From positions 26,529 through 90,528 of the forward strand of contig CALVTR010000001.1 in the NCBI GenBank assembly GCA_944362965.1: 64,000 nt of DNA. The letters run 5' to 3'. The stretch's first letter is position 1, and every line of letters starts with the position of its first letter. The translations under genes and the position numbers were made by a program. The notes under the pieces were generated by a model. That model was given only the letters and a program-made list of their open reading frames with translations. It made no database searches and was not told the origin of the DNA. Source of the DNA: an uncultured Clostridia bacterium. GTDB taxonomy: Bacteria; Bacillota; Clostridia; Christensenellales; UBA1242. Shown one piece after another: positions 1,131-52,339 of this stretch.

Positions 1131-1258
1131 GCTGTGAGCTTTAGCTCTGCCCAAGAAAACATGCGAATTTTTAAATTCGCATTATGACGCAAAAGCTTTT
1201 GCGTCATCAGAAACTCTTTCGAGTTTCTGTTTTCTTGGCCAGTGGCTAAAGCCACAGT
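1131..1258. repeat. four-way-junction (cloverleaf) element A1
   Basis: The outer stem pairs CTGTG-GCTTTAGC and CCAAGAAAAC with the far end. It encloses three nearly perfect hairpins: GCGAATTT/AAATTCGC, GACGCAAAAG/CTTTTGCGTC and AGAAACTC/GAGTTTCT. Read on the minus strand it lies in the 5' leader of the 858 gene, downstream of the poly-G promoter. The element at 22068-22194 is a near-identical copy. No T-run follows it, so it is not a simple terminator. Confidence 0.8.
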
Positions 1259-1300
1259 CTTTGCTTTTAAGATAATAATATTATATCTTAATTTATCTTT

Positions 1301-1328
1301 ATTATACCCCCCCCGCAACCCACGTCAA
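1301..1328 (-). promoter_or_regulatory. poly-G spacer promoter 1
   Basis: On the minus strand the -35 is TTGACG (1323-1328) and the -10 is TATAAT (1301-1306). The 16-bp spacer ends in eight consecutive G (C at 1307-1314 on the plus strand). The promoter points at the surface gene starting at 858 and gives a leader of roughly 435 nt. Matching promoters are at 22239-22265 and 31736-31763. Slippage in the G run would change the spacer length and so the promoter strength. Confidence 0.75.
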
Positions 1329-1428
1329 GCAAATTTAACAAATTTTTTAAAAATTTTTAATTTTTTTCGTTTTTTTATTTTATAGCCTATTTTGTTTATC
1401 ATGCCTACTTTTTTCATAATATTTATAA

Positions 1429-1454
1429 CAAAAAACACACATATAGTATGTGTG
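1429..1454 (-). terminator. intrinsic terminator after era
   Basis: On the minus strand CACACATA-CTA-TATGTGTG is followed by a T-rich run. It lies about 20 nt past the era stop codon and ends the floA-to-era block. Confidence 0.7.
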
Positions 1455-1475
1455 CTATAAAAAATTAAAATTTAT

Positions 1476-2312
1476 TTAATATCCCAAGCTCTTTACCTTG
1501 TCCGGTCTGTCTCGCCAATCTTTTTCTACACGGACAAAGATTTTAAGCATAACCTTTTTGCCTAGTAGTTCTTCAGCAAATCCCCTTGCATAAGAGCCTA
1601 TCTTTTTTAGTGTTTGTCCGCCCTTGCCAATTATCATACCTTTATGCCTATCATTTTCGCAAATAAGGTCGGCATCAATATAGCAAATATCTTCGCTTTC
1701 ATTAAACCTTATAATTTCAACAGCCACTCCATGTGGCACTTCCTGGTGCAAAATATTGAGAGCTTTCTCTCGTATTTCTTCTGCTATTAAAAACTTAACA
1801 CTCTTGTCGGTATACATATCTTCGTCATATATATAATGCTTATCTTGGTATTCTGGCAAATGCTCCAATATCTTCTCTTTGAGAGCGTCAATGTTTTCGC
1901 CTGTAAGTGAAGATACTTCAATATCGGCATCAAATGACTTTAAATTTTTTAGGTCTATCTTTGTTTTAACTACAAGGCAAGGTGTTTCAAGATGAGCAAT
2001 ATACTCCTTCTCTTCGTCAGTTGGCGTTTTGCTGCCATCCATCAAATATAGAACAAGGTCAACCCCGCTGACTGCCGCCCGGACGTTTTTCGACATTGCC
2101 CTATCAAGTGCATTTTTGCTATGGTGAATGCCCGGCGTATCCACGAACACTATTTGATAGTCGCTGCCCGTGAGAATACCTAAGATATTATCACGCGTGG
2201 TCTGTGGTTTTGATGAAATAATCGCCACCTTTTGCCCTACGAGAGCGTTTACAAGGCTGCTTTTCCCTGCGTTTGGCAGCCCAACAAGTGCAACATATCC
2301 TGCTCTAAACAT
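1476..2312 (-). CDS. era: GTPase Era
   Basis: Era is an essential GTPase that binds 16S rRNA near its 3' end and helps 30S maturation. The 278-residue protein has G1 GLPNAGKSS near residues 11-19, the G3 DTPG, a TKID G4 motif and a C-terminal KH domain with GMIIGKGGQTLKKIG. It is slightly shorter than typical Era (about 300). Its start overlaps the ybeY stop by 8 nt, and the ybeY-era order is common in Bacillota and links two ribosome-maturation factors. Identification is firm from motifs and context. Confidence 0.97.
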   Translation of the reverse strand: MFRAGYVALVGLPNAGKSSLVNALVGQKVAIISSKPQTTRDNILGILTGSDYQIVFVDTPGIHHSKNALDRAMSKNVRAAVSGVDLVLYLMDGSKTPTDEEKEYIAHLETPCLVVKTKIDLKNLKSFDADIEVSSLTGENIDALKEKILEHLPEYQDKHYIYDEDMYTDKSVKFLIAEEIREKALNILHQEVPHGVAVEIIRFNESEDICYIDADLICENDRHKGMIIGKGGQTLKKIGSYARGFAEELLGKKVMLKIFVRVEKDWRDRPDKVKSLGY

Positions 2313-2790
2313 GCTTTTTGCCTCGTTTCAATTTTAGGTTGCTAAGTATCTTCTCCGCAGTTTCATTCATAATTTTTTCATCATTTTCTTCAATATGGTC
2401 ATACCCTAGCACATGTAAAAGTCCATGAAGGGCAAGAAAGCCTATCTCACGTTTTTTGCTATGTCCATATTCTTTCGCCTGCTTTCTTGCAATCTTAGGG
2501 CATATCACAACGTCACCGAGATATAATGTTCCATCTGGTGATTTTTCTTTTGCAAACTCCTTAAGCTTATGTGGGTAGACAATGTCAAGCATTGGAAAAG
2601 ACAGCACGTCTGTTGCCCTGTCAACTTTTCTATACTGATTGTTAAGGTCTCTTATTCTTTTTTCGTCTGCAAATGAAACTGTTATTACACTTCCTTCAAG
2701 GTCATTTTGTGTTTCTTGCATTGCTGCATGGTAAATTTTTGTTATAAGACTTCTACTACAAAAAGATACTTTTTCAAAATTGATTTGCAC
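2305..2790 (-). CDS. ybeY: endoribonuclease YbeY
   Basis: YbeY is a metal-dependent endoribonuclease involved in 16S rRNA 3'-end maturation and ribosome quality control. The 161-residue protein carries the family's zinc motif HGLLHVLGYDH near residue 121 and the conserved RKVDRATDVLSFP segment. It lies two bases after yqfD and overlaps era, so all are probably co-transcribed. In many Bacillota a PhoH gene sits between yqfD and ybeY; it is absent here. Confidence 0.96.
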   Translation of the reverse strand: MQINFEKVSFCSRSLITKIYHAAMQETQNDLEGSVITVSFADEKRIRDLNNQYRKVDRATDVLSFPMLDIVYPHKLKEFAKEKSPDGTLYLGDVVICPKIARKQAKEYGHSKKREIGFLALHGLLHVLGYDHIEENDEKIMNETAEKILSNLKLKRGKKHV

Positions 2791-2792
2791 TT

Positions 2793-3917
2793 TTATTCTC
2801 CTATGTTCTTATTGGTGGTTATCGTATAGCTAACTATATGACAACCCGCCCCTTCGCTTATATAATAATTTTCACTTATTATTATGTCATTTTCTTGCAA
2901 AAAAATCAAGGCTTTTTGACGTGCTTCTGCAATTTTATCTTCTTTAACGTCATCAAAATTTGAAATAATTTCCTTTGTTTCTATTTCATAATAGGTGGTC
3001 TTTCTTAATTTCAGCGGCAAAATCAAATTTTTTGTAAGGTCTTCGGTGTAACTTTTAATTTCATACTCTTCAAAATTGACTTCTTGAGTGTTTGAATAGA
3101 TAACTAAATCTCCTAGCAGCACTTCAACATTTGTGAAAAGATTGCCTGTTCTTGTGCTTTCAATTCTATAATCATAGTGCGAAGCAGTGGCACTAATCCA
3201 CACATTTGCATAGATTTCTGCCTTAGGCTGCACCTGATAGACCGTTCCATCAGCGTCAGTTGTGTATGGCAAAACTAAAACATCACCTTTCTGCACAATA
3301 TCGCCTTCATTGACGTTAAGTGTGCCTTGAATAAGGTTTATCTCTGTTATCATTCCGTCATACTCGCTGACTATAGGCTGAAAATCATCGCCCATTTCAT
3401 TTGGCAAGACGGCTGGATTTAGGTTTATAATCAAACTTTGCCCAACAATCGCTACACTCACCGAGCTTACAAAATCAAAATTATTTCGTATCATAATTTC
3501 TAAGTTGTCGGTGGAGATATTGCTTTTAAAATTGCTATTCATATTATCTTTAACAAAGCTCTTTACTTCCTGACACTCCGCACTCTCGCCGCCCCATACT
3601 TCTATTTTTAGCACCAGATTAAACTGCACCAAATAAAAAATAAGCGATATAATTATTCCTGCAATTATACCATATCTTAAAAAAGCCTTTTTGAGATTAT
3701 AGAAAAATCCACGATGAGATATAGAAACTATTTCAAGCCCTTGATTTTCAATTAGCTTTTTTATCTCCTTTGTGTCCTTGAGTTCCACTTCAAACTGACT
3801 ATTTTTTTCATCTTCTCGCTTAAAATTAAAAATCTTGACCTTCTTTGAAATGTTGTTTAAAGCCCGCTCTTGATTTAGTCCCTTGACTTTAAACGTTATC
3901 CTATTTTTCAGCATCAA
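2793..3917 (-). CDS. yqfD: sporulation protein YqfD
   Basis: YqfD belongs to a family of membrane proteins conserved in spore formers and expressed in the mother cell in Bacillus. The 374-residue protein has a basic cytoplasmic N-terminus, a transmembrane segment near residues 84-104 (GIIAGIIISLIFYLV) and a large extracytoplasmic part. The N-terminal KVKGLNQERALN region and the later GDIVQKGDVLV stretch are family-like. Its start overlaps the yqfC stop by 4 nt, the usual partner gene. Confidence 0.9.
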   Translation of the reverse strand: MMLKNRITFKVKGLNQERALNNISKKVKIFNFKREDEKNSQFEVELKDTKEIKKLIENQGLEIVSISHRGFFYNLKKAFLRYGIIAGIIISLIFYLVQFNLVLKIEVWGGESAECQEVKSFVKDNMNSNFKSNISTDNLEIMIRNNFDFVSSVSVAIVGQSLIINLNPAVLPNEMGDDFQPIVSEYDGMITEINLIQGTLNVNEGDIVQKGDVLVLPYTTDADGTVYQVQPKAEIYANVWISATASHYDYRIESTRTGNLFTNVEVLLGDLVIYSNTQEVNFEEYEIKSYTEDLTKNLILPLKLRKTTYYEIETKEIISNFDDVKEDKIAEARQKALIFLQENDIIISENYYISEGAGCHIVSYTITTNKNIGE

Positions 3918-4177
3918 AATATCTCCACTTTGTTTATTTTCCCCTGCAAAAGCAGTGTGTTATCGGTAAGCTCATTTAAGACTAGATTTTCACCTTCTAC
4001 AACAACCCTGCCCTTCTTTATCTTGAACGCCACAGTCTCTCCGCTTAAAATGGTAACACCGTGATGCCCTTCAACATATAGCAGTTTGCCTGATAAGTTG
4101 ATGATATTATAGTCATTAAGCAAATTGTGGTCAAAATTTGTCACCTTGTTTTTTATCTCATCAAAAAAATTGAACAT
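3914..4177 (-). CDS. yqfC: sporulation protein YqfC (YabP family)
   Basis: This is an 87-residue YabP/YqfC-family protein. The core INLSGKLLYVEGHHGVTILS followed by a predicted beta-rich tail matches the family, and YqfC is paired with YqfD across spore formers. I chose the ATG at 4177 (MFNFFDEI) because GGAG lies six bases upstream; an in-frame TTG at 4189 overlaps that site. Its molecular role in spore formation is not defined from sequence. Confidence 0.88.
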   Translation of the reverse strand: MFNFFDEIKNKVTNFDHNLLNDYNIINLSGKLLYVEGHHGVTILSGETVAFKIKKGRVVVEGENLVLNELTDNTLLLQGKINKVEIF

Positions 4178-4220
4178 ATAAGTCTCCAATTTAAGATATG
4201 CTCATATTCAAATATATATT

Positions 4221-4246
4221 AAAAAAAGAGTAGCAAAAGCCACTCT
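4221..4246 (-). terminator. intrinsic terminator after the floA pair
   Basis: On the minus strand AGAGTGGC-TTTT-GCTACTCT is followed by six or more T. It begins right at the stop of the 4248 gene and separates floA and its partner from yqfC. Confidence 0.85.
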
Positions 4247-4247
4247 T

Positions 4248-4844
4248 CTAGTCATCATATTTATTGAAAACATTGCTTAAAATAACTGCTTTTATCTCTG
4301 GCGGAAGGTCTTTAATTTTAGATAGGATATCCTTGTTTAAAATCCTTCTTGAATATGCATGTTCGTCAAGGAACGCTTCAAAATCATCTTTTTGCTCTCT
4401 TCTTTGCGGGCTTGCATTCATTTTGGAACGTTCGGAATTAAGTAAATCAAGAATTTCTCTGTTCTCTAGATTTCTTGGCTGTCTAGTCCTTGTAGTGCGT
4501 TCGGGCTGCATTCTTCTTGGTTGAGAAAAAGTTGACTCTGGTGGAACATAATCTTCAATGATTGGACCTTGTTTTTCCGTTTCAACCTTTTTCTCAGAGC
4601 TCTCAATTCTATTCTCAGCTGGTTTTTCTTCAGCTGCTTTTATAGGTTCTGTATTTTCTTGGTCTTTTGATAAGGTTATTTTGTTGTCATGCTCAAGATT
4701 CTCTTTCTCAGTTTTATATTTTTGTAAGTTTTCTTGAAGTTTTTTAAAACGCTTTTTATTTGCCCTGCGTATAAAGATAATTGCAATTATAATAGCGATA
4801 AGCACCCCGCCACAAATTATTCCTATAAGTAATGGCGTGCTCAT
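4248..4844 (-). CDS. single-pass membrane protein with charged tail, FloA partner
   Basis: I do not recognise this 198-residue protein as a named family. Residues about 5-25 form one transmembrane segment (LLIGIICGGVLIAIIIAIIF) followed by basic residues, so the N-terminus is probably outside. Residues 30-100 are a Lys/Glu-rich, probably coiled-coil or disordered linker. A short folded-looking end (DFEAFLDEHAYSRRI to NKYDD) follows. It starts exactly at the floA stop, so it is translationally coupled and may work at FloA-containing membrane domains. That role is inferred only from position. Confidence 0.75.
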   Translation of the reverse strand: MSTPLLIGIICGGVLIAIIIAIIFIRRANKKRFKKLQENLQKYKTEKENLEHDNKITLSKDQENTEPIKAAEEKPAENRIESSEKKVETEKQGPIIEDYVPPESTFSQPRRMQPERTTRTRQPRNLENREILDLLNSERSKMNASPQRREQKDDFEAFLDEHAYSRRILNKDILSKIKDLPPEIKAVILSNVFNKYDD

Positions 4845-5866: not shown

Positions 5867-6012
5867 GTTTTCCTCCAACCTTATTATATCACAACAACAA
5901 ATTTATGTAAATACCCATAAATTTAAAATTTGGTATAATTTAACGATTTTTTCAGGAAATTATGGTATAAAACATATTATTTTTTGAAAATTTTGCCGTT
6001 TTTGTTTAATTT

Positions 6013-6852
6013 TTACTCTTTTCCGATAAATGACCTTTGATAGTAAAACAAATATTGCTGTGCATAGCCTGCAAGCGAGCCAAACTCTGAAACAAGATTT
6101 TGTGATATTTTCTCTCTGTTTTGAAGCGGCGTGTAGTATTTGTTATACATTTGCTCAATCCATGTGTCCACAGGAAAGACATCAAAACGATTGAAGCCGA
6201 ATAGTAAGACACAATCCGCTACTTTTGGTCCAACTCCGCTCAAGGAGATGAGTTTTGCCCGAAGCTCTTTTGTGCTTAAAGCTTGCATATCACAAAGCTT
6301 ACTAGGAGTTATCTGTCTTAAAACCTTATAAAGATAGTCAGCTCTATACCCTGCACCCATGTTCTTGAAAAATTCTTGACTACACTCTAGCAGTCTATCA
6401 TAACTTGGAAAAGATTTATGCTCCTTGCTCTCTCCACTTTCTCCGATAGCATTTCTTATATTATTTAAAATAAGCTTTATACGCTTTATATTGTTATTAG
6501 CCGAAATTATAAAAGAAATAAGTGTTTCAAATGGATTTTGCTTTAAAATTCTAATTCCATAGCCAAATTTGATTGGCTCACGCATAATATTTTGCTTAGA
6601 TAGCTCTGCTTTTATTTTGTTATAATCATTATCAAGGTCAAACCAGTTTATAAAATAATCAATATCTGTTGTGTATATTCGTGTTTTGCCATCTTCTTCA
6701 ATAATCTCTGCATACTTATCTTGCGGAAATACTATAAACCTGTCGTCTTTCTTTTCATAGCAGAAAACTTGTCCACATTCTAAAATATGTTCTATATTAA
6801 ATTGACTTTTATCTTCTATTTCAATAAAATTTTCACCTTTTGTATAAATCAT
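6013..6852 (-). CDS. ogg: 8-oxoguanine DNA glycosylase, OGG1 type
   Basis: This enzyme excises oxidised guanine during base-excision repair. The 279-residue protein has an OGG_N-like N-terminal domain (HILECGQVFCYE) and a helix-hairpin-helix/GPD segment, LSGVGPKVADCVLLFGF, carrying the catalytic lysine. The catalytic aspartate is in PVDTWIEQMY. The spacing of Lys and Asp matches the bifunctional glycosylase/lyase family. It is transcribed alone. AlkA-type 3-methyladenine glycosylases are the main alternative but lack the OGG_N features. Confidence 0.9.
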   Translation of the reverse strand: MIYTKGENFIEIEDKSQFNIEHILECGQVFCYEKKDDRFIVFPQDKYAEIIEEDGKTRIYTTDIDYFINWFDLDNDYNKIKAELSKQNIMREPIKFGYGIRILKQNPFETLISFIISANNNIKRIKLILNNIRNAIGESGESKEHKSFPSYDRLLECSQEFFKNMGAGYRADYLYKVLRQITPSKLCDMQALSTKELRAKLISLSGVGPKVADCVLLFGFNRFDVFPVDTWIEQMYNKYYTPLQNREKISQNLVSEFGSLAGYAQQYLFYYQRSFIGKE

Positions 6853-6893
6853 AAAAAACCTCGCAATTATTATAGCATACTTAACACTAATTG

Positions 6894-6929
6894 TTAATAA
6901 AAAAATATATCATTTTTTACATGATATAT
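6894..6929 (-). terminator. intrinsic terminator after the SpoVM-like gene
   Basis: On the minus strand ATATATCAT-GTAAAAA-ATGATATAT is followed by seven T. It lies about 95 nt past the small SpoVM-like ORF and upstream of the glycosylase gene, which supports a separate short transcript. Confidence 0.7.
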
Positions 6930-7023
6930 AACAAGCTATAGATTTTAATAGCCTTAAATTAATAACAAAATATGTAGATATGAAACGTGAAAAATTGTCT
7001 CAGATGGCAAATTTTAAGTTAAT

Positions 7024-7128
7024 TTAAGCGTTTTTTGACTTAAAAAATCTTTTTAGAAAAAAGCTGAGCCACTTAGGAGCTTTGATACATATTATTCTAT
7101 ACTTTGCGTTGTCTTTCTGTTTTTCCAT
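7024..7128 (-). CDS. spoVM: SpoVM-like amphipathic coat-assembly peptide
   Basis: A 34-codon ORF in the gap between feoB and ogg reads MEKQKDNAKY then RIICIKAPKWLSFFLKRFFK and ends SKNA. SpoVM in Bacillus is a 26-residue amphipathic helix, MKFYTIKLPKFLGGIVRAML then GSFRKD, that recognises the curved forespore membrane and recruits SpoIVA. The I-K-x-P-K-x-L core, the basic amphipathic helix and the charged end all match. SpoIVA is in the same window (36.9-38.4 kb). No clear ribosome binding site precedes the ATG, and the N-terminus is longer than usual, so the exact start is uncertain. Confidence 0.6.
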   Translation of the reverse strand: MEKQKDNAKYRIICIKAPKWLSFFLKRFFKSKNA

Positions 7129-7242
7129 ATTCTTATTTATTCAAATTTATGTTGCAATGTGAAAAAAATTAATATAAAAGATAGGAAGAATGAAAAGACT
7201 TAGCTTAAAATTAATATTGTTGAAAAGTTTTTTGTAAGCTTG

Positions 7243-7343
7243 GCGGCTATCGGAAACGCAAGCCTTTTTAGGCTTGCAAAAGGAAGCTCCGCTTCCTTTA
7301 AAAACTTTGAGCCCTTGCTCAAAGTTTTGTTTCCGATAGCCGC
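7243..7343. repeat. four-way-junction (cloverleaf) element A3
   Basis: The outer stem is GCGGCTATCGGAAAC paired with GTTTCCGATAGCCGC. Inside are three hairpins: GCAAGCC/GGCTTGC, AAAGGAAGC/GCTTCCTTT and AAAACTTTGAGC/GCTCAAAGTTTT. It lies downstream of feoB. No T-run follows on the minus strand, so terminator activity is doubtful. The sequence is unrelated to A1/A2 but the fold is the same. Confidence 0.8.
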
Positions 7344-7389
7344 GACCTATTCCCTTGCAAGTGCCCCTTCCCCTGTCCCCAATTTCGAC

Positions 7390-9528
7390 TTATTTTAATT
7401 TGCACCTTTTGCCGCATGTATCACTATATGCACACAATTTCTTCTTTTTAATTCTTTTTATGATATAAATAATTGCAAAAATAATGACTAAAATCATCAA
7501 GAAGCTCAAAAAAGTTTTTAAAAAGCCAAAAACCTCGAAAGCTCTAGCAAGAGTGTATACAACAAAAGCTGTCAAATAGGCAATAACAAATTCTATCAAG
7601 ATGCCTATAAAGGTCCACTTTTTGCCTATCTCTTTGATTAAAACAGAAGTTGTTGCTATGCATGGGAAATAAAGAAGACAGAAAACTAAAAACGATATAA
7701 CAGAACTTCCGCTTGCAAAGTGGACAGCAGACGTTGATAAAATTATAGAAGATTGAATGGAATTTATTGAATTTTCTTCCACTCCATTGAACATTGCAAT
7801 GGAAGAAACTATCACTTCTTTTGCAACCAAGCCAGCAATAAGCGCGGAAACAAGCCCCCAGCTGTTAAAGCCAAGTGGTATAAAGATTGGCGAGAGAACT
7901 CTGCCTAGCGTTTCAAGCATGCTCACCCCACCGCCACTGCCAATAAAGTGGAAGGTTATTGTAAAGTTGGAAAGCAGCCATACCACAACATTCATAGCAA
8001 GAATAAGCGTTGCCACACGAGTTATAAATTGTTTAACATTTTGCCATAGAAGCGAGAACGTTCGTTTAAAACTCATCATTCTATATGGTGCAAATTCAAG
8101 AATAAAAGACTGTTCTTTGCTCTTTAAAAGGGTCTTTTCAAGTATATAAGAAAGAAATATTGCAATAACGACGCCTAAAAGATAAAGCCCTATTATAACG
8201 AAAATATTGTTTGCACCAAAGAACGCACCCCCAAGCACTGCGTAGATTGGAAACTTTGCCGAACAACTCATGTAAGGAGTTAAAAGTCCGGTTTTAATCT
8301 TTGAGTTTTTATCTTCCATGTTTCTAGCGGTCAGCACTGCTGTTGTCGAGCAGCCAAATCCCATGAGCAGTGTGTAGGCACTCTTGCCAGAAAGCCCGAC
8401 TTTGCCAAGCACATCTTCAAAGACAAAGGCAACACGTGAAAGATAACCGCTATCTTCAAGAAGAGAAAGGAAGAAAAATAGCAGTGCCACTTGTGGCAGA
8501 AAGGTAAGAATAGAGCCCACTCCACCAATGAGTGCAACTTCCACTAAACTTACAATCCACGAGCCTTCGCCCAAGTTTGCGACTAGAAAATTTAAAAGCG
8601 GCGATGAAATAAATTTATCAAGAAGATAACTTAGCCCGTCACTTAAATAAGCACCTATTGAAAAGAAAGTCAAATAAAAAGAAATCGCGAGTAGTAGCAA
8701 AAAGATAGGAAGTGCAAGATATTTATTTAAAAGAACTTTGTCAAATTTGCTCTGTCCATAGATGTGCGTTCTCTTAGAAGAATACTTTTCCATTAAGCTA
8801 TCAATATAGTCATATCTGCAAGTTGCAATATCTTCCACTGCAGAAAAATCTGTTTTTATATCTAAATCCTTTTTTATATTTTCATCGTCTTCGAGAAGTT
8901 TAATTTTTAAAAATTCTGCAAATTCTTCATTATTTTGCAATTTTTTTGCTATTTTTTCATTAAAAACAGCTAATTTTTCGCTATATTTATTTAAAACCTT
9001 TTTTATATGGCTTAGATTATAGCTTGGCCTATAACCTTCTTTTAGCTTTTTATCTAGTGCTAAAATACAATCATTAAGACTTGTTAAACTCTTTTTGTCG
9101 CTTGCATTTAAATAGACAATATCAATGCCAAGTTCGCTTGACAGACCGCTAAAATCAATCTTGCATATCTTGCGTTTGTCTATCTGATTGACCACAAGTA
9201 TTATAGGACAGCCAAGTTCCATCAGCCCCACAGTTAAGTATAAATTACGTTGCAAATTGCTTGCATCGCAAATATTAACAACTATTCTATTTCTATATTT
9301 TAATATATAATCGGTTGCAACTTTTTCTTCAAAGCTAAGCGGCGTTAGAGAATAAATCCCGGGAAGGTCAACAATATTTATCTCACTGTCCTTATATCTG
9401 TATGTTGTTGCCTTCTCTTCAACTGTCACGCCATGCCAGTTGCCCACATGCTCATGCGAGTGAGTTAGCGAGTTATAAAGAGTTGTCTTGCCTGTGTTTG
9501 GGTTGCCTACTAAATTTACTTGAATCAT
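7390..9528 (-). CDS. feoB: ferrous iron transporter FeoB
   Basis: FeoB is the inner-membrane Fe(II) uptake protein with an N-terminal G domain. The 712-residue protein starts MIQVNLVGNPNTGKTTLYNS, with G1 GNPNTGKT, a DLPG G3 motif and NQID G4. The membrane part carries the conserved GFGCSTTAV segment and repeated Gate-type hydrophobic stretches. The C-terminus ends in a Lys/Cys-rich tail (KKKKLCAYSDTCGKRCK) that may bind metal. The ATG at 9528 has GAAGGAG just upstream and was preferred over one six codons earlier. It follows feoA by 10 bases. Confidence 0.96.
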   Translation of the reverse strand: MIQVNLVGNPNTGKTTLYNSLTHSHEHVGNWHGVTVEEKATTYRYKDSEINIVDLPGIYSLTPLSFEEKVATDYILKYRNRIVVNICDASNLQRNLYLTVGLMELGCPIILVVNQIDKRKICKIDFSGLSSELGIDIVYLNASDKKSLTSLNDCILALDKKLKEGYRPSYNLSHIKKVLNKYSEKLAVFNEKIAKKLQNNEEFAEFLKIKLLEDDENIKKDLDIKTDFSAVEDIATCRYDYIDSLMEKYSSKRTHIYGQSKFDKVLLNKYLALPIFLLLLAISFYLTFFSIGAYLSDGLSYLLDKFISSPLLNFLVANLGEGSWIVSLVEVALIGGVGSILTFLPQVALLFFFLSLLEDSGYLSRVAFVFEDVLGKVGLSGKSAYTLLMGFGCSTTAVLTARNMEDKNSKIKTGLLTPYMSCSAKFPIYAVLGGAFFGANNIFVIIGLYLLGVVIAIFLSYILEKTLLKSKEQSFILEFAPYRMMSFKRTFSLLWQNVKQFITRVATLILAMNVVVWLLSNFTITFHFIGSGGGVSMLETLGRVLSPIFIPLGFNSWGLVSALIAGLVAKEVIVSSIAMFNGVEENSINSIQSSIILSTSAVHFASGSSVISFLVFCLLYFPCIATTSVLIKEIGKKWTFIGILIEFVIAYLTAFVVYTLARAFEVFGFLKTFLSFLMILVIIFAIIYIIKRIKKKKLCAYSDTCGKRCKLK

Positions 9529-9538: not shown

Positions 9539-9763
9539 CTACTCAACCATAATGGAATTTACAATAGTATTGCGTAACGACAAAGTGTAGCCACGTATTT
9601 CTATCATATATGCCTTTTTTAACAATGATTTATTGACAACCCTTACTTTTTGCCCTGCTAGAAACCCTAGATCATACAAACGGCGTCTCAGCTTTTCTGA
9701 CAATAGGCTATCTATTTTTATAATAGAATAATATTTATTCTCCTTACACTCACTTAGTCTCAT
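9539..9763 (-). CDS. feoA: FeoA-domain protein
   Basis: FeoA is a small SH3-like cytoplasmic protein needed for FeoB activity. The 74 residues from MRLSECKENKYYSI match the family's usual start (MxLSELKxG), and the RLYDLGFLAGQKVRVV core is typical. A further in-frame ATG at 9799 would add 12 residues (MSIKLKFDIVYY), but that stretch looks like untranslated promoter-like sequence. Neither start has a strong ribosome binding site. It is followed immediately by feoB. Confidence 0.88.
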   Translation of the reverse strand: MRLSECKENKYYSIIKIDSLLSEKLRRRLYDLGFLAGQKVRVVNKSLLKKAYMIEIRGYTLSLRNTIVNSIMVE

Positions 9764-9943
9764 ATAGTAAACTATGTCAAATTTAAGTTTTATAGACATA
9801 AAATTATATATTTTTTTAAAATAATACCTATTTTGCTATTTTATAATAAATTTGAAATAAAAAAACTCTCCACATGTAATTTTGAATGCAAATTGTTATC
9901 ATCACACTTTATGCGACATGTTTTGTAAAAAGACTATTTTTGT

Positions 9944-9971
9944 TTGAAAGGAAAGAAAAATGTGCTAAAAT
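9944..9971 (+). promoter_or_regulatory. promoter of nrdR
   Basis: TTGAAA (9944-9949) and TAAAAT (9966-9971) are 16 bases apart, with the nrdR start 20 bases downstream behind AAGGAG. The 9764-9991 gap between divergent feoA and nrdR holds nothing else that I can name. Confidence 0.6.
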
Positions 9972-9991
9972 AAATATAAGGAGAATTTATT

Positions 9992-17779: not shown

Positions 17780-17929
17780 CTTAAATTATAGCATAAAAGC
17801 AAGGGGACTCGGATATTTAGCTGGTTTGCAAGTTTCGCAAGCCAGAAGAAAACGCAAGTTTTCTAAAAAGTTTTGCATCAGCAAAACTTTTTCTAAATAT
17901 CCGAGCCCTTTACTTTTATGCTATTTAAG
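17780..17929. repeat. four-way-junction (cloverleaf) element A4
   Basis: A long outer stem (GCATAAAAG, then GGG-CTCGGATATTTAG, with small mismatches) pairs across the element. It encloses three hairpins: CTGGTTTGC/GCAAGCCAG, AGAAAAC/GTTTTCT and AAAAAGTTTTGC/GCAAAACTTTTT. It sits between the Cys/Gly gene and the PH-domain pair. It has no sequence similarity to A1 but the same architecture. Confidence 0.8.
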
Positions 17930-21033: not shown

Positions 21034-21936
21034 TTAATATGAAAATACTATTTCACAATCACTTGCCAAAATATAATTTAAAACTCTCCCATCATCAGTT
21101 AAATAAAAATTTTCATTAGGATTTAAACTTTTCCAAACGCCTTCATTAGGCATTATTATTGCATCCGCCGCAACATATGCATAATTATCATTTAAATAAA
21201 TTGCACACCTACCAGAAACCTCAGGGGCATATAATTCAACTTCATTAAGACCATTATAACTTATAGAATTAAAACTTGTAAAAGACGTTATACTCATAGA
21301 AAGCACGCTACCATTTAACGTAATACTACCACCTAAATCAAGCATTATCTCTTCTCCACCATCAATTTTAACATAAAGTGGAACCACCGCAGAACTATTT
21401 ACAACTGATATATTTACTGTGTAGCCCGTTTGTTCTGCTATATCTATAACAATGTTGTCAAGGTTTATTGTGGTTGAGCTTGTGACCTGAGCACTAATGT
21501 ATATTGTGCCGGAGATGCCATCATAGGTTGCAACTTGGTCAAGTGGAACGCTATCTCCTGCTATTGTTCCACTGACTGTTAAGGTTGCATTTGACAAGTT
21601 TGACTGACTGCTTGCGTTATATGTGGTTTCGGTCGTGTTGATAACGTCAATTTCAATGGATATTGTTCCGCTATCTGAACTTATAGTGCCAAAATCAAGC
21701 TCAAAACTTTCCCCTGCAAAACCCGATAAAAAGTTATCAATGGTCTCGCCCACCGTTAAGCCATCCGATAGCCTTATATCTTTGATATACAAAGTTGAAT
21801 CATCTATATTAAATTCAACATTCCCTTTTAAATTTATTGTAAAACCACCAGTTGCGGCTAGCACGCCCACAAGTAGCATACTTAGCACCAAAACAAATGC
21901 TGACATCATTGAAATAAGTTTGATTTTTAATGACAT
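21034..21936 (-). CDS. secreted SipW/TasA-type surface protein, copy 2
   Basis: The 300-residue protein starts MSLKIKLISMMSAFVLVLSM and has a hydrophobic export segment ending GVLAA. The mature start (TINLKGNVEFNIDD) shares the I-x-L-x-G-x-V-x-F pattern with the other family members. Residues up to about 163 nearly match copy 1; the rest differs, with an ELYAP motif shared later. There is no C-terminal membrane segment or sorting motif, so retention would be by assembly. It has its own poly-G promoter (22239-22265) and RBS GAAGGAG. A TasA-like fibre subunit is an inference. Confidence 0.78.
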   Translation of the reverse strand: MSLKIKLISMMSAFVLVLSMLLVGVLAATGGFTINLKGNVEFNIDDSTLYIKDIRLSDGLTVGETIDNFLSGFAGESFELDFGTISSDSGTISIEIDVINTTETTYNASSQSNLSNATLTVSGTIAGDSVPLDQVATYDGISGTIYISAQVTSSTTINLDNIVIDIAEQTGYTVNISVVNSSAVVPLYVKIDGGEEIMLDLGGSITLNGSVLSMSITSFTSFNSISYNGLNEVELYAPEVSGRCAIYLNDNYAYVAADAIIMPNEGVWKSLNPNENFYLTDDGRVLNYILASDCEIVFSY

Positions 21937-22067: not shown

Positions 22068-22194
22068 CTGTGAGCTTTAGCTCTGCCCAAGAAAACATGC
22101 GAATTTTTCAAATTCGCATTATGACGCAAAGGCTTTTGCGTCATTAGAAACTCTTTCGAGTTTCTGTTTTCTTGGGCAGTGGCTAAAGCCACAG
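22068..22194. repeat. four-way-junction (cloverleaf) element A2
   Basis: This is a near-identical copy of element A1, with outer stem CTGTG/CACAG plus GCTTTAGC and CCAAGAAAAC. It has the same three hairpins carrying compensatory or loop changes (for example TTTTTCAAA in the first loop). It lies in the leader between poly-G promoter 2 and surface copy 2, so promoter, element and gene start were duplicated as a unit. Confidence 0.82.
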
Positions 22195-22238: not shown

Positions 22239-22265
22239 ATTATACCCCCCCGCAATGTTTATCAA
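22239..22265 (-). promoter_or_regulatory. poly-G spacer promoter 2
   Basis: On the minus strand -35 TTGATA (22260-22265) and -10 TATAAT (22239-22244) are 15 bases apart, and the spacer ends in seven G (C at 22245-22251). The spacer is one base shorter and the G run one base shorter than in promoters 1 and 3. The upstream AT-rich tract (AACAAATTTTTTAAAAATTT on the plus strand) is conserved among all three. Confidence 0.75.
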
Positions 22266-31582: not shown

Positions 31583-31713
31583 GCGAGCGGGGTTAGCCGT
31601 GCGTAAGAAGGCACAAAAAATGTAAATTTTTAGAAGGCAAAAGTTTTTGCCTTCAGTGAAATTTTGCTAATAGCAAAATTTCTCGTGCCTTCTTACGCGG
31701 CAGAGCCGCTCGC
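31583..31713. repeat. four-way-junction (cloverleaf) element A5
   Basis: The outer stem GCGAGCGG, GCCG and CGTAAGAAGGCAC pairs with GTGCCTTCTTACG, CGGC and CCGCTCGC. Three hairpins follow: AAAAAT/ATTTTT, GAAGGCAAAA/TTTTGCCTTC and the perfect 11-bp GAAATTTTGCT/AGCAAAATTTC. It is in the leader of surface copy 3, but its sequence is unrelated to A1/A2. Confidence 0.82.
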
Positions 31714-32302: not shown

Positions 32303-34513
<2,211 letters not shown>

Positions 34514-36769
34514 TTATTCATTTTCAATAATATTTAGCGGTGCAAGTTCTAGCATTAAACTTTTTTTGCCAAAGTCTTCAAAGATTATATCGCCAACAAG
34601 TCCATCATCAGAGATTGCCACAATCTGACCTATGCCAAATCTTGGGTGCTCCACTTTTTGACCAACTTTATAGATTGAAACATCCTTTCTAGGCTCTTCT
34701 TTTTTTTCTTCCTTCTTTACAAAAGACTTATGGTCAAATGGAAAACTTTGTTTGCCACCACCCATGCCACTTTTCACATAGTCGCCACCACATGCATAAG
34801 GGGCTCCATAGCTGCGGCTATGGCCATTATAAGTGCGGTCTGCATTATATGCCTTATTTTCACTTATGCCTTTGCTTTCAAGAGACAAAAGCCCAAGTTC
34901 GCGGCAAAACCTGCTTGGAGTTTGATATTGGCTTTCTCTATACATATATCTCTTTGAACAATGCGACAAATATAGCCGCTCTTCTGCACGAGTCAAGGCA
35001 ACATACATAAGACGGCGTTCTTCTTCAAGTTCATAATTATTGTTGAGAGCCCTTGAAATTGGGAAGATGCCTTCTTCAAGCCCTATAACAAACACCACTT
35101 TAAACTCTAGCCCCTTCACCGCATGCACGGTTGCTATAGTCACAGCACCGCCTTGCCCTATATCGTCTGTGTCAGAGCTTAAGGTTATGCTCTCTAAGAA
35201 ATCTCCTAAGCTTGCGTCTGGGTTAAGTGCTTCAAACTCCTTGACTGATGAAACAAACTGGTCAACGTTCATAAGTCTGTTTAGGTCTTCTTCATCTTTG
35301 ATATTATACGCTTCTCTTATTTTAAATGCCAATAGCACGCCTTCAACAAATTTTGATAGTGGCTTTTGTGGAAGCTCTAGTGCTTTGTTATAGCCTTCTA
35401 AAAATGGCAAAAACTTTTTATAAAGTGCGGTGTTTTTTATATCTTCTGAAAGAGCGTTCTCAAGCAGTGATTTTGAATAGTCTAATTCCTGCAATTTTGC
35501 AAGTGTGCCGTCACCTATACCACGTTTTGGGAAGTTGATAATTCTTGCAAAGGACACATCATCTTTTGGGTTTGTGAAAAGTCTTAAATAGCCAATCATG
35601 TTTTTGATTTCCACACGCTCATAGAATTTAAAGCCGCCGAAAATTCGATGCGGTATATTATAGAGCAAAAAGGCCTCTTCAAGATTTCGTGAAAGCGCGT
35701 TCATACGCATAAGCACTGCAATATCTTTATATTCATAGCCCTTGGTTTCAACAAGGTTTTGAATAGTGCGTGCAACATAGGTGGCTTCATCTCGCTCGTC
35801 ATAGGCGTTATATAGCGTTGGTTTCTCACCGCCTTCTTTGTCTGTCCACATATTCTTATTGAGTCTTGCTGTGTTATTCTTTATAACATTGTTTGCAATC
35901 TTGATAATCTCGCTTGTTGAGCGGTAGTTTCTTTCAAGTTTATAGGTTTTAAGGTCAGGAAAATCCTTTTTTAAATTGAATATATTTTGAAAGTTTGCAC
36001 CCCGCCATGAATAAATACACTGGTCTTCATCTCCAACAACAAAAAGATTGCCATGCACGGACGCGAGCAATTTGACAAGGTTATACTGCACAAGGTTTGT
36101 GTCTTGAAACTCGTCGACAAGCACATATTCAAAGCGGTTTGCATAGTAATCTAAAATCTGCGGAAAGGTTTTAAAAAGCTCAATGGTTTTGCAAAGCAGG
36201 TCATCAAAATCTAGTGCATTGTTTTTCTTAAGTTTGTTTTGATATGCCACTATGCACTTGCCTATCTTTTGCATATCATATTCGTCGCTATGCGTGTTTA
36301 AATATTCTTCTAGACTTTGCGAGCCATTCTTCCAATTTGATAAATGCTTGACAACTGCCTTTTTGATTTTATCATCATTGACGCCGAACTCTGCAAGCAC
36401 TTCTTTTATAACCTTATCACTATCACTTTCGCTATAAATTGAAAAATCTTTGGTAAAAGGATAAAGTGCGTCTATATCGCGGCGTAAAATCTTGGCACAC
36501 ATTGAGTGAAAGGTGGAAATCCACACTTTCTCAGCCCCGTCAACCATTGATATGATACGCTCTTTCATCTCGCCCGCTGCCTTATTTGTGAAAGTGATTG
36601 CAAGTATGCGGTATGGATCAACGCCGCACTCCTTGATAAGATATGCCACCCTATGCGTAAGAAGTCTGGTCTTGCCGGAGCCTGCACCTGCCGTAACTAA
36701 AACCGCTCCCTTAATTTCCTTAAGGGGTGCGAGTTGTTCTTCATTTAATGAATTTATATCGTATTTCAT
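34514..36769 (-). CDS. pcrA: ATP-dependent DNA helicase PcrA/UvrD
   Basis: PcrA is a 3'-5' superfamily 1 helicase for repair and plasmid replication. The 751-residue protein has Q-motif LNEEQLAPLKEI, Walker A TAGAGSGKTRLLTHR, motif II VDEFQDTNLVQY, motif III VVGDEDQCIYSWRGA and motif VI LMYVALTRAEERLYLSH. The C-terminal Tudor-like domain (VGQKVEHPRFGIGQIVAI) is the part that binds RNA polymerase in Bacillus. It precedes ligA. Confidence 0.97.
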   Translation of the reverse strand: MKYDINSLNEEQLAPLKEIKGAVLVTAGAGSGKTRLLTHRVAYLIKECGVDPYRILAITFTNKAAGEMKERIISMVDGAEKVWISTFHSMCAKILRRDIDALYPFTKDFSIYSESDSDKVIKEVLAEFGVNDDKIKKAVVKHLSNWKNGSQSLEEYLNTHSDEYDMQKIGKCIVAYQNKLKKNNALDFDDLLCKTIELFKTFPQILDYYANRFEYVLVDEFQDTNLVQYNLVKLLASVHGNLFVVGDEDQCIYSWRGANFQNIFNLKKDFPDLKTYKLERNYRSTSEIIKIANNVIKNNTARLNKNMWTDKEGGEKPTLYNAYDERDEATYVARTIQNLVETKGYEYKDIAVLMRMNALSRNLEEAFLLYNIPHRIFGGFKFYERVEIKNMIGYLRLFTNPKDDVSFARIINFPKRGIGDGTLAKLQELDYSKSLLENALSEDIKNTALYKKFLPFLEGYNKALELPQKPLSKFVEGVLLAFKIREAYNIKDEEDLNRLMNVDQFVSSVKEFEALNPDASLGDFLESITLSSDTDDIGQGGAVTIATVHAVKGLEFKVVFVIGLEEGIFPISRALNNNYELEEERRLMYVALTRAEERLYLSHCSKRYMYRESQYQTPSRFCRELGLLSLESKGISENKAYNADRTYNGHSRSYGAPYACGGDYVKSGMGGGKQSFPFDHKSFVKKEEKKEEPRKDVSIYKVGQKVEHPRFGIGQIVAISDDGLVGDIIFEDFGKKSLMLELAPLNIIENE

Positions 36770-45258: not shown

Positions 45259-45344
45259 GCCCGAGAATACAGACGCAAAAGCTTTTGCGTCCAAAAAGGC
45301 GGAGCCTTTTTTAAAAACTCGCAAGAGTTTTTGTATTCTCGGGC
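45259..45344. repeat. four-way-junction (cloverleaf) element A6
   Basis: The outer stem GCCCGAGAATACA pairs with TGTATTCTCGGGC and encloses GACGCAAAAG/CTTTTGCGTC, AAAAAGGC/GCCTTTTT and AAAAACTC/GAGTTTTT. The second hairpin of A1/A2 (GACGCAAAAG) recurs here as the first one, so modules appear to be reused. It lies upstream of the promoter of the SipW locus. Confidence 0.82.
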
Positions 45345-45356
45345 GTAACCCATGTT

Positions 45357-48457: not shown

Positions 48458-48557
48458 CTTTGCTTATTACTCTTTCTATATTTTAGCAAAATTACACACT
48501 TTTGCAAAATATTTAGATTATTGAGCAAAAATTTTGACTAAAAAACGCGAAAAAAAT

Positions 48558-50768
48558 TTATTTTTTAATATTTTTTAATAAATTATCTTGCGAACAAACA
48601 AATTCAATACAACAAAAAAGGCAGCTTTTGTAGCCGCCAATTTTTTTATGATTGATATGGATTTCAGATGTGTCCATGAACGCCAGCCCTGTGTAGAACT
48701 TATAGTTTGTTTGATAGTCACCTGCTCTCTTGATAACCTTGTAGGTTATTTCAAGATAGTCGCAACCATCCGTGCCTGAGAACATTGAAGGGTTGAATCT
48801 TCCTGAAGTGTATGTGTAGCCATCTTCAAGCTCGTCTGTGTCATATTCAGGGTTTGTGCCAAACTCAACAATCTCATAATACTTTCTAACGTCGGTTGTG
48901 CCCACAATTACAAGTGGATTTGTTGAGACGTAAGGTGCACCTTCATAGTTGCCAGTTGTTCCAACGTCGGTCATAAGAACACCGTCACCTATGCCTGTGT
49001 TGAAAGCACCAACGAGAAGTTGACCAAGATCGTCAAACATAACACCGCTACAGTGCCCTTCTGGAGCATTCACTCCGTCACCGCCGTCACCTTCTTCGCT
49101 GTAGATAAAGTCAAGGTCATAAGGTCCATCATAAACTCTGACTTGTTTTGAGTCAAGGACTGTTCGCGTATCGGTTGCATTGTTATAATAGTTAAGGTCG
49201 ACAATTATATCAATATATTGATCGCCATACACGCCTTCTTCTGTGCCGTCAAGGTCAGCATCATATTTAAGTGCAACCCACAAGCCATCAACGTATGTGT
49301 CCGTGCTAAGCATTATTGCCACCGATTGATATTCAAGTGGAAGAAGTGTGTTAAGGTCTGATATGCTGCTATCGTCACTTGGTGCTGGGAAGTTTGTGTC
49401 ATCTTGAATGAAGAACATGTTTCCGGCATATTCCATAATATTTGACGCTAGGAAACGCTCATCTATAGTGACATCTTCACCATTGTCGCTTCCAATAGAT
49501 ACAAGCTCGCAAACGCTATCCATAATATTTTGAACTGCTGTGCGATAGTCTCTGCCTAAGGCGTTTTGAGAATACGTTGCATCTGAGAAATCATAGCCAA
49601 CATACTCATAAGTTTCACTATCTACATAAGCTATAACCCCAGATGTGTAGTTTGTGAACATATCGTCGTTATTAAGCGCAGTCCCGCCAATGATATTTTC
49701 AAGTATCCAATTTTCTATCTTTGTAACCTGTCTATCAACTAAGCCGACATAAGAGCCAAGCCTTGAGAATAGATATTTTGCATAGTCAAGCGCAACGTCA
49801 ACACTTGTTCTATCACCTTCTGCCGGAAAATCTGTCACATTCACGGTATACTGCCCTGTATAATTTCCATATGCGTCAGTTTCGTAAGTTATAGTAACTT
49901 CGGCAGGTTCAAGGTCAACTGCATAGCAATATATTGCATACTCAAGAGCCTTGACATATTGGGAATAACTCTCTTCGTCATTTGGATCAGCACTTGATGA
50001 TAAAAATAGAGATTGATAATAATTACTATCAAAAACTATTTCGTTTGAATAATAATTTTGTATAGCTGAAGGAGCATCACTACTTGCATTTATATAAACT
50101 CTACCATCTTGGGCTATATAATCTCCAGTTGAATAAACATAGGCGTTCATGTTTTCCATTGTAACTACTGGGGCTATCGTCCAATTCCACTTTACATTTG
50201 TATCAGCTCCAACTAGATATATTGGGCTCGCCAAATCCATCACTTCGTCACCGACACTTGTGATTTGCCCGTTTTCATAAGTAACCAAAACACCTTGTTG
50301 AACTATGGCTGATGTATCTACTTGATAACGGATGCTATCATAAAGATAACTTGTCATATCCATACCCCATGGCATATCAGTTGTTTCGTTATTAAAGTTA
50401 GGCAAAGCACCTGGCTCATCTGGTGTCCCTATAACAGTTCCCGTATTCATCATACCATAGACACCATATAAACTTTCCATAATGAAATATGCATATTGCC
50501 CATAATAGTTGTTTGTTTCGCCTTCAGCAGCACCTGAACCTTCATCGTAGTTATAGTCATCAGGGCGATATAGCACCTTTGCACCATACATATCAACAGT
50601 TAGGTTATCTTGAAAGTCTTCATCATCAAAAACGCCATCATCGTCGCCTTCCCACCCTTCAGGATTGCCAGGCAAACCAAGACAGCCCACACTGATAAAG
50701 GCAAAGCATAAAATCATGCAAATTGTCAAAATTTTAAACAAGATACCCTTTGTTTTCTTCTTTTCCAT
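48558..50768 (-). CDS. large acidic lipoprotein
   Basis: I do not recognise this family. The 736-residue protein has a lipoprotein signal (ILTICMILCFAFISVGC, with lipidation at Cys in VGC|LGL). An acidic linker (GDDDGVFDDEDFQDN) and a long Tyr/Asp/Thr-rich mature part follow. Phrases such as VTITYETDAYGNYTGQYTV and KYYEIVEFGTNPEYD suggest beta-rich surface domains. It would be anchored on the outer face of the membrane by Lgt/LspA processing. No catalytic motif was seen. Confidence 0.72.
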   Translation of the reverse strand: MEKKKTKGILFKILTICMILCFAFISVGCLGLPGNPEGWEGDDDGVFDDEDFQDNLTVDMYGAKVLYRPDDYNYDEGSGAAEGETNNYYGQYAYFIMESLYGVYGMMNTGTVIGTPDEPGALPNFNNETTDMPWGMDMTSYLYDSIRYQVDTSAIVQQGVLVTYENGQITSVGDEVMDLASPIYLVGADTNVKWNWTIAPVVTMENMNAYVYSTGDYIAQDGRVYINASSDAPSAIQNYYSNEIVFDSNYYQSLFLSSSADPNDEESYSQYVKALEYAIYCYAVDLEPAEVTITYETDAYGNYTGQYTVNVTDFPAEGDRTSVDVALDYAKYLFSRLGSYVGLVDRQVTKIENWILENIIGGTALNNDDMFTNYTSGVIAYVDSETYEYVGYDFSDATYSQNALGRDYRTAVQNIMDSVCELVSIGSDNGEDVTIDERFLASNIMEYAGNMFFIQDDTNFPAPSDDSSISDLNTLLPLEYQSVAIMLSTDTYVDGLWVALKYDADLDGTEEGVYGDQYIDIIVDLNYYNNATDTRTVLDSKQVRVYDGPYDLDFIYSEEGDGGDGVNAPEGHCSGVMFDDLGQLLVGAFNTGIGDGVLMTDVGTTGNYEGAPYVSTNPLVIVGTTDVRKYYEIVEFGTNPEYDTDELEDGYTYTSGRFNPSMFSGTDGCDYLEITYKVIKRAGDYQTNYKFYTGLAFMDTSEIHINHKKIGGYKSCLFCCIEFVCSQDNLLKNIKK

Positions 50769-50822
50769 AGTTATATTTTACCCTATAAACAGATAAAAAT
50801 CAACTTTTTATATAATTTTAAT

Positions 50823-50851
50823 AAAAAAAGACGAATTTATCGTCTTTTTTT
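50823..50851. terminator. bidirectional terminator
   Basis: AAAAAAAGACGA-ATTTA-TCGTCTTTTTTT, just past the stop of the 50857 gene, has T-runs on both strands. Confidence 0.85.
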
Positions 50852-50856
50852 GTATT

Positions 50857-52059
50857 TTAGTAATCTAAATCGTATTCTTCTCTTTCGCCCTTATCATTTG
50901 TATAGACAAGTTTATAACTTGTTGCTGTTATTGTTTCTTGCTGTGGCAAGTCAACATTCTCTATGACTGTTCCTGAAAATTCTCCACTTTTTGCTTCTGC
51001 CTCAATTTCATAATATTGTCCATTATTTAGATTTTCTATAAGTGTTTGATCATTGCGATTATTTTGATTTTCTTTAATTCTTATAGAAACCTCTTCATAA
51101 CCATTTTCAGTTAAATTCATAACAATAATTCTTTTTGCTGTCCCATCGACTGCTCCATCAACAGTGCTACCATTGTCTCTTATAAATGATTGAGTGTTTT
51201 CGTCAACTGCTGAAATAACTCCGTCAGCTGCAAGTTTAGTATTTACTGCATCTAATAATTCAGCTCTTTCAGTTTGAATTGATGGATTATAACTAAAAGC
51301 ATATTCATTAACATATTTAGCACCCGCAACAAAAGGGTTTCCTTCGTCAAAAGCTGCATCCATTTTTGCTGTATCATTATTTATTAAATCAGTGATTGTT
51401 AAATCAGTTACAGGGTCAACACTTAAATACATAAATGTTCTTGAAGTTTCAGAATTATTATAGTCGAATGTCATGTATATTTTATCTATTGTTGCGTTAT
51501 CACTTGTTGTAGATATTCTCCATTCTACATTATCCACCTTATTTAGGTCATAACTATTTCCAACAATATTATCAAGCACTTTTTCAAATAAACTTGAATC
51601 AAGCACATTGTTAACTATTGCTTGGTATTCTTCATTGCCTTCTTGCATAAGTTCTTCTAAAGTATCTGGAACTTCAGGCTCTGGTTCTGGCTTATCAACT
51701 TCACCGCCAGGATTCTCTCCTGGGTTCTCACCTGGATTCTCTCCTGGGTTTTCGCCTGGATTCTCACCTGGATTCTCACCTGGATTCTCACCTGGATTCT
51801 CTCCTGGGTTCTCACCTGGATTCTCTCCTGGGTTTTCGCCTGGATTCTCACCTGGATTCTCACCTGGATCTGGAACTACAATTCCTGGATCATTTGGAAC
51901 AGGCTCTTTTTGAGTGCAACCTGTAAATGTAAAGGCAGTGCCTAAAAACATTGCAGCAGTAAGTGCAACAATGCCAATAGCACTTAACACTTTACCCAAA
52001 AATTTCATTTTATATGGTCTGTTTGATTTTACAGCGCCATCTTTCTTAATAACTCTCAT
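50857..52059 (-). CDS. lipoprotein with NPGE tetrapeptide repeat stalk
   Basis: The 400-residue protein has an N-terminal export segment ending in FTFTGC|TQKEP, a lipobox. A spacer of 13 tandem Asn-Pro-Gly-Glu-type repeats (about residues 65-120) follows, then a folded-looking domain from TLEELMQEGNEEYQ to the end. The Pro/Gly-rich repeat resembles a wall-spanning stalk that lifts the domain from the membrane. The folded part has no recognised family. The start has RBS GGGAGAG. Confidence 0.75.
   Translation of the reverse strand: MRVIKKDGAVKSNRPYKMKFLGKVLSAIGIVALTAAMFLGTAFTFTGCTQKEPVPNDPGIVVPDPGENPGENPGENPGENPGENPGENPGENPGENPGENPGENPGENPGENPGENPGGEVDKPEPEPEVPDTLEELMQEGNEEYQAIVNNVLDSSLFEKVLDNIVGNSYDLNKVDNVEWRISTTSDNATIDKIYMTFDYNNSETSRTFMYLSVDPVTDLTITDLINNDTAKMDAAFDEGNPFVAGAKYVNEYAFSYNPSIQTERAELLDAVNTKLAADGVISAVDENTQSFIRDNGSTVDGAVDGTAKRIIVMNLTENGYEEVSIRIKENQNNRNDQTLIENLNNGQYYEIEAEAKSGEFSGTVIENVDLPQQETITATSYKLVYTNDKGEREEYDLDY
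51710..51865. repeat. 13 x 12-bp tandem repeat (NPGE-coding) with higher-order unit
   Basis: Thirteen 12-base units differ only at a few third-codon positions. The order of variants in units 1-6 is repeated in units 8-13, so a block of seven units (84 bp) has been duplicated. Unit number can change without shifting frame, so stalk length may vary between strains. Confidence 0.9.
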
Positions 52060-52249
52060 ATTTCTCTCCCTCTAGCTTTATTATAGCACACATAAAATAA
52101 AAATCAATACTTTTTTAAAAAATATACACAAAATTTAAAAAAGTGATAGATGATTTAAAAAACTACAACTTATATTAATATCAAAAGTTTTGGTGCTTAT
52201 AATAGGTTATTCAAGTTATCGCTATTGATATATAACATATATACAAAAA

Positions 52250-52339
52250 GCGGCAAGAAAGGCAGGCTTAGTGCCTGCGAAAAAGCATGAAATGCTTTTT
52301 CAGTGCCCGCATCTTCATGCGGGCACGCTTTCTTGCCGC
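52250..52339. repeat. four-way-junction (cloverleaf) element A7
   Basis: The outer stem GCGGCAAGAAAG/CTTTCTTGCCGC encloses three directly adjoining hairpins: GCAGGC/GCCTGC, GAAAAAGCAT/ATGCTTTTTC and GTGCCCGCAT/ATGCGGGCAC. It is the most compact and most perfect of the family. On the minus strand it is followed by TTTTT and may also act as terminator of the holin gene. Confidence 0.85.

Follow-up and report, generated by a model that had tools for sequence, protein, structure and literature searches.

Dispersed four-way-junction palindromes that keep their fold while their letters change in an uncultured Clostridia genome

A 64,000-nt stretch of the genome of an uncultured gut bacterium of the Clostridia (GenBank assembly GCA_944362965.1, contig CALVTR010000001.1, positions 26,529 to 90,528), here called the window, carries seven dispersed intergenic elements in which one outer stem encloses three adjoining hairpins (Table 1). 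The question raised by this locus is what keeps such a fold in place while its letters differ from site to site, and whether it is kept as DNA or as RNA. The window is part of contig C1 of the own genome (G000, a 1.37 Mb assembly of 24 contigs), which was compared with the sister species G066 and with a genus panel of 112 genomes; surveys of single sites covered 30 genus loci.

One fold in the window and in two species

All seven elements, which an earlier note had described from the sequence, were recovered at their claimed positions by a geometry scanner that looks for an outer stem around n abutting hairpins, permits gaps of 0–3 nt and has no sequence requirement. The three-hairpin form (n=3) was found exactly seven times in the window and not once in four dinucleotide shuffles. 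The four-hairpin form was absent from the window in the same scan, and the two-hairpin form was represented by one AT-rich match. When folded as single-stranded DNA, each of the seven formed a four-way junction, with z-scores from -9.0 to -15.3, and none of 200 shuffles folded equally well. An extra AT-rich match at 34337–34457, obtained with a permissive scan that tolerated A-C pairs, was judged spurious; this permissive scan also gave two matches in three shuffles of 460 kb. The earlier note knew of no named family with this design, and a search of Rfam 15 gave no gathering-level match in the window and, at E values up to 1, only RF03531 at 34953–35048 (E 0.045), away from the elements.

Furthermore, the union of the plain and symmetric scanners was applied to 860 kb of the own genome and 777 kb of G066, yielding 54 and 28 three-hairpin matches, respectively; one shuffle of each stretch contained none. 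Four- or five-hairpin forms were not found in these stretches, and two-hairpin forms occurred twice in the own genome and never in G066. The density was about one element per 16 kb of the stretches examined, and the genome total is uncertain because some of these stretches had been picked at sites of earlier matches. In the 32 elements found first, stems of 7–12 bp accounted for 88 of the 96 hairpins and loops of 2–4 nt likewise for 88 of 96, while the outer stem ranged from 10 to 32 bp and the total length from 85 to 134. AT-rich matches were excluded at G+C cut-offs of 0.27 for clustering and the union scan; 0.27 (own) and 0.235 (G066) for the analyses of G-U and A-C pairs, poly-G leaders, stem extension, target sites and T tracts, repetitive extragenic palindrome (REP) tags and tRNA leaders; 0.22 for the strict syntenic scan; and 0.235 for the pair fates (partner scan 0.18) and for stems versus flanks. 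Two matches, L137 2110 and L129 3514, were excluded by eye from the analyses of 72 elements, and L041 4370 was seen by the first scanner and missed by the symmetric one.

Alignment in both orientations placed 49 elements in 14 clusters, several of them singletons. The large clusters have outer stems resembling GAGAAGGCA (cl2), GCAAGCGAATG (cl3), GCCCAAGAAAAC (cl4) and GGC..CGGAAA (cl9). The earlier note had taken the stems of the window, apart from one pair of elements, to be unrelated; this was too broad, as element 5 falls in the GAGAAGGCA-type family and element 2 in the GGC..CGGAAA-type family. The module sharing that it proposed holds, because hairpins such as AAAAACTC..GAGTTTTT are common to more than one cluster and the GACGCAAAAG hairpin recurs, exactly at 1186 and 45272 and with one mismatch at 22123, so that the same hairpins are found in otherwise different elements. 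The first hairpin of element 6 is common to element 1. Across 30 aligned elements there was no invariant column, and the mean column identity was 46%.

The conservation of the fold was followed between the own genome and G066, whose proteins have a median identity of 88% over 445 reciprocal best hits. These genomes share 315 orthologous adjacent gene pairs, 194 of them with a spacer longer than 60 nt, and in 19 of the 194 a strict scan detected an element in at least one of the two species (8 in both, 7 in G066 only and 4 in the own genome only). Both species were occupied at all 19 syntenic spacers compared, of which 9 were read by the strict scan, 4 by a relaxed scan and 6 by eye; the ninth strict site, L039 9792, was re-cut, its gene call having overlapped the element. 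The fate of the stem pairs was recorded in 28 directed comparisons at these 19 sites, with 9 sites counted in both directions: 880 pairs were the same, 111 had changed on both sides, 28 had become G-T and 29 A-C, 102 were broken and 48 gapped, and 38 further cells were unpaired in the reference. The 111 complete pair changes compare with 57 single changes of wobble type and 102 cells that were broken. The aligned-base identity was 79% in stems (1303/1641) and 65% in flanks (1263/1932), loops being the least conserved (85/193), and 17 of the 19 sites had a higher identity in the stem than in the flank (Wilcoxon p 5e-5). Additionally, an alignment of 13 cl3 sequences, given a named structure, had 96.9% of its cells paired and 10 double-change pairs; when it was compared with 500 shuffles, four measures were reached by none and one measure by a single shuffle.

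The fold is a real, shared and retained feature, and its being kept while the letters change suggests an importance of the shape itself for the chromosome. The covariation expected from selection on structure was indeed found, both in the cl3 alignment and between the species. Nevertheless, covariation alone is no proof of selection, because template switching likewise matches arms; the conservation of stems over flanks is the better argument. Not all elements are old at their sites, as is seen at a tRNA-synthetase leader described below and at element 4, for whose two flanking genes the 777 kb examined from G066 contained no reciprocal best hit.

Template switching, with or without selection

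The reading given the most weight here, at a probability of about 0.4, combines template switching with selection for a four-way DNA junction that would serve as a topological node between genes. The elements would be chromosomal four-way-junction palindromes of roughly 85–135 bp, with an outer stem of 10–32 bp and three hairpins mostly of 7–12 bp, whose arms would be kept matched by replication template switching between inverted arms. The same process would lengthen the outer stem into the host flank and invert the core, and selection would retain the fold. The selected form would be a DNA junction, extruded by negative supercoiling or held by a junction-binding protein, and its role would be that of a cis-acting node between genes, either topological or protein-binding. 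A bolder version, in which this is a sequence-free element class recognised by the shape of the DNA junction alone, with arms written from the adjoining host sequence and a role as a topological or protein-docking node, appears somewhat doubtful.

Two hallmarks of template switching, arms matched through double changes and inversion of the core (spacer), were found by sequence comparison. The order of the three hairpins was reversed between L069 and its counterpart in G066 (L118), and the paralogues L044:19648 and L046:7670 had both flanks collinear and their cores in opposite orientation. Of 88 pairs of elements that belong to the same cluster and have matching flanks, 29 were discordant in core orientation; only the collinear-flank pair was relied on, because the 88 pairs lack independence and dispersed repeats account for some of the flank matches. 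Inversion of loops was also considered as a mark of template switching (7 of 219 hairpin pairs had reverse-complement loops, where redealing the loops gave 3.7, sd 2.1), and was not used because the examples include oppositely oriented elements. Loss of SbcCD as the ground for palindrome tolerance was rejected, with SbcD matches in 84 of the 112 genus genomes, including the own genome and G066; nearly all were under the curated cut-off, and two of 112 above it.

Host-derived arms were found at two gene ends. At the end of a PSP1-domain gene (L041), about 40 nt of coding sequence has an inverted match past the three hairpins, and the outer arm at this gene end is host-coding in both the own genome and G066. 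The motif S-E-[ILV]-K-[ED]-Y was encoded in all 13 readable loci of the 30 (the other 17 were without the search motif), and 11 of the 13 have no element there; the coding arm is host sequence, since the motif occurs also at element-free loci. This gene end had the top inverted-copy score of 613, which by itself is not unique because other gene ends reach 18–23. At the end of the FeoB gene in G063 and G092, the Cys-Lys codons lie within the outer arm and the stop codon within the element. At both gene ends the simplest reading makes the noncoding arm the copy. Outward extension beyond the scanned stem scored at least 5 in 10 of 72 elements, half of them cl4, and in 1 of 72 controls.

The best surviving alternative, judged rather unlikely, is that random or inserted palindromes were perfected by inverted template switching and that nothing selects the fold. 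It shares with the preferred reading the core inversions and host-derived outer arms observed here, and PMC8604942 describes arm homogenisation and spacer inversion as products of template switching in yeast. Correction alone would be expected to give stems and flanks equal rates, however, and the stems are the more conserved; moreover, all 19 compared syntenic sites were retained and the hairpin number is nearly always three. The excess of stem conservation may itself be general, because PMC8604942 also reports proteobacterial short-inverted-repeat regions as more conserved than their surroundings.

Occurrence, mobility and the strand that folds

A covariance-type model of 17 cl2/cl3 sequences, run over the genus panel, matched 37 times in the own genome and 12 times in G066. 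Weak matches, one or two per genome, were obtained in fifteen other genomes; the scanner then saw three-hairpin elements in four of them (L090, L091, L098 and L099). Model R1, whose RNAalifold structure lacked the outer stem and the third hairpin, was used for copy-finding only. In 20 further stretches from eleven genus genomes, a clean element was observed in three (L147, L151 and L154). Downstream of the FeoB gene (named by Pfam), an element was present in 8 of the 30 genus loci, six by scanner and two (L288 and L289) by fold; by eye, those of G063 and G092 are near-identical, those of the own genome and G066 partly alike, and the remainder dissimilar. A small reading frame downstream of FeoB (window 7021–7129) was seen by eye in several relatives as well, and in the own genome the element is located between FeoB and this frame. 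Another element stands before a class II tRNA synthetase gene (Pfam), between the start codon and a leader that looks T-box-like by its motif (L085 about 9640–9976; L121 of G066, 8355–8762). Among 66 more distant loci (1.16 Mb) there were two scanner matches, one of them AT-rich. In a metagenome-assembled genome (MAG) of a more distant Clostridia bacterium (JAFUKB010000011.1), a clean three-hairpin element was found at L218 11252–11330, which suggests that the class extends beyond this genus.

Several observations weigh against the preferred reading. There was no element in 20 stretches of at most 20 kb each from 20 relatives, 22 of the 30 genus loci have none after FeoB, and the tRNA-synthetase leader carries one in only the own genome and G066 (2 of 30). 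Six of the 19 partner elements rest on a by-eye reading of the alignment, the alignment of low-identity spacers is uncertain and 102 of the 1,150 assessed pair cells were broken. In addition, template switching alone might produce the covariation, and an RNA role would suit the closeness of gene ends, 35 of the 68 nearest 3' ends being no more than 100 nt away from an element.

Patchy occupancy also bears on a second alternative, that the elements are non-autonomous mobile elements, like miniature inverted-repeat transposable elements (MITEs) or REPs, moved in trans in recent bursts; this is unlikely. Near copies are numerous in clusters cl2, cl3 and cl4 and often sit in repeat islands, occupancy of one site differs between species, and in two genomes the element includes the FeoB stop. 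The Y1 (RAYT) transposase, PF01797, was matched in 4 of the 8 FeoB-site carriers (G008, G022, G054 and G063) and in 2 of the 22 genomes whose FeoB loci lack the element (G089 and G122). Three of the carriers' matches are partial, however, and the fourth is interrupted by a stop. Neither the own genome nor G066 is among the 13 of 112 genus genomes with a Y1 match, although these two have the highest counts of elements. There was no excess of target-site duplications, one of at least 5 nt being found in 72 elements against about 2.3 in the control: direct repeats at the outer-stem boundary, where the insertion boundary was assumed, were at the level of shuffled flanks. A GTAG/CGTC tag stood at the boundary of 4 of 72 elements and at 9 of 72 random places. 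Finally, the stems remain matched long after divergence.

The earlier note had left it between a DNA-level element and an RNA leader. A sense could be read from the flanking genes for 57 of the 72 elements, and their sense strands had 24 G-U against 37 A-C pairs, so that a true G-U share of 80% was rejected (p 5e-12). Single-side changes between the species were balanced (28 G·T against 29 A·C). Selection on a sense transcript would be expected to leave G·U well ahead of A·C; since sense G·U does not exceed A·C, these results argue against a sense RNA and for DNA. A DNA-level structure, both strands folding alike, is favoured, and it is unlikely that the selected form is a sense-RNA leader; an RNA transcribed from both strands would also be compatible with these counts. 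Tetraloops typical of RNA were not enriched (8 GNRA-type loops against 7 of the complement type), and a T-rich stretch adjoining the outer stem, as in an intrinsic terminator, was found in sense in 7 of 57 and in antisense in 3 of 57, with a background of 166 of 972. Hence sense-strand RNA elements, acting as 5' leaders, 3' stabilisers or branched terminators, are quite improbable in view of these three counts, even with the nearness of gene 3' ends, the position behind the T-box-like leader and the elements in leaders behind the poly-G promoter-like sites described below. Among 25 unambiguous neighbour arrangements of 32, 20 were tandem, 3 divergent and 2 convergent, the background being 98, 33 and 21 of 152.

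If a selected DNA junction is what the elements share, sites that kept their shape in two species would offer a natural test of a role for cruciform or junction DNA in bacterial chromosomes. They would also test how far template switching alone builds and maintains complex palindromes.

Neighbouring features and comparison with known elements

Table 1. Elements and promoter-like sites of the window (window positions; all elements by scan and fold)
Feature	Positions	Strand	Hairpins	Family and remarks
Element 1	1131–1258	none	1161–1182, 1184–1207, 1208–1229	cl4; core 1147–1242, outward stem imperfect
Element 2	7243–7343	none	7258–7277, 7279–7299, 7301–7328	cl9
Element 3	17780–17929	none	17821–17845, 17847–17864, 17865–17892	cl11; core 17802–17911, imperfect outward stem extension
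Element 4	22068–22194	none		cl4; core 22083–22179; near copy of element 1
Element 5	31583–31713	none	31616–31631, 31633–31654, 31658–31682	cl2, outer stem GAGAAGGCA-type; core 31601–31698
Element 6	45259–45344	none	45272–45291, 45293–45311, 45313–45332	cl4-like
Element 7	52250–52339	none	52262–52278, 52279–52301, 52303–52326	cl6
Promoter-like TTGACG-N16-TATAAT	1301–1328	-		spacer ends in eight G; G000:C1:27829–27856
Second promoter-like site	22239–22265	-		seven G before TATAAT; G000:C1:48767–48793

Element 1 has near copies at 22083 and at other places of the genome. Element 2 begins 46 nt past the predicted FeoB stop and has its orthologue at 16277 of L120 in G066, and the orthologue of element 3 was found by relaxed scan in the spacer 6223–7245 of the same locus. 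Element 1 would lie within the inferred 5' leader of the first promoter-like site; the second stands upstream of both element 4 and the minus-strand gene 21034–21936. A cl2 or cl4 element follows a promoter-like site of this kind, with its run of seven or eight G ahead of TATAAT, in several leaders. The exact poly-G promoter pattern was matched seven times in the own genome (two in the window and five elsewhere) and never by a reversed control; the length of the run may vary by slippage, switching genes on and off. The motif GTGCGGG is rare outside predicted genes, where 7 of the 9 copies of the own genome and 5 of the 6 copies of G066 lie within 150 nt of an element. It is often paired, 35–37 nt apart (window 1084–1126; L071 2888–2931 and 3790–3831; in G066, L124 17446–17487 and L130 16344–16385). 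A 12-nt-period repeat of 14 overlapping copies was also observed at 51671–51905, within the predicted gene 50857–52059.

A literature search, with subscription papers mostly outside its reach, found no description of such elements. The double-hairpin elements of chytrid fungal mitochondria likewise combine a conserved fold and compensatory changes with a variable sequence, and differ in having two hairpins.

The REP, BIME and REPIN families, as described in PMC2817692, are similar in being multicopy, modular intergenic palindromes with complementary changes and species-specific families. Those families have a conserved sequence with a head of GTAG type, together with a cognate Y1 transposase. 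In contrast, the elements described here have neither an invariant column nor an excess of boundary tags, each unit closes into a four-way junction, and a Y1 match is absent from the own genome. The LIMP palindromes of Lobosphaera incisa mitochondria (PMC4524435) are likewise dispersed, intergenic and present in both orientations, with the same debate between cruciform and RNA stem-loop; unlike the elements studied here, each is a single hairpin of repeated pentamers with an invariant loop. The inverted repeats perfected by template switching in PMC8604942 share arm homogenisation and spacer inversion with the present elements, and differ, as described there, in lying within yeast genes and forming no genomic class with three inner hairpins. 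The intergenic bacterial palindromes compared here are families defined by sequence, from which elements defined by shape would differ.

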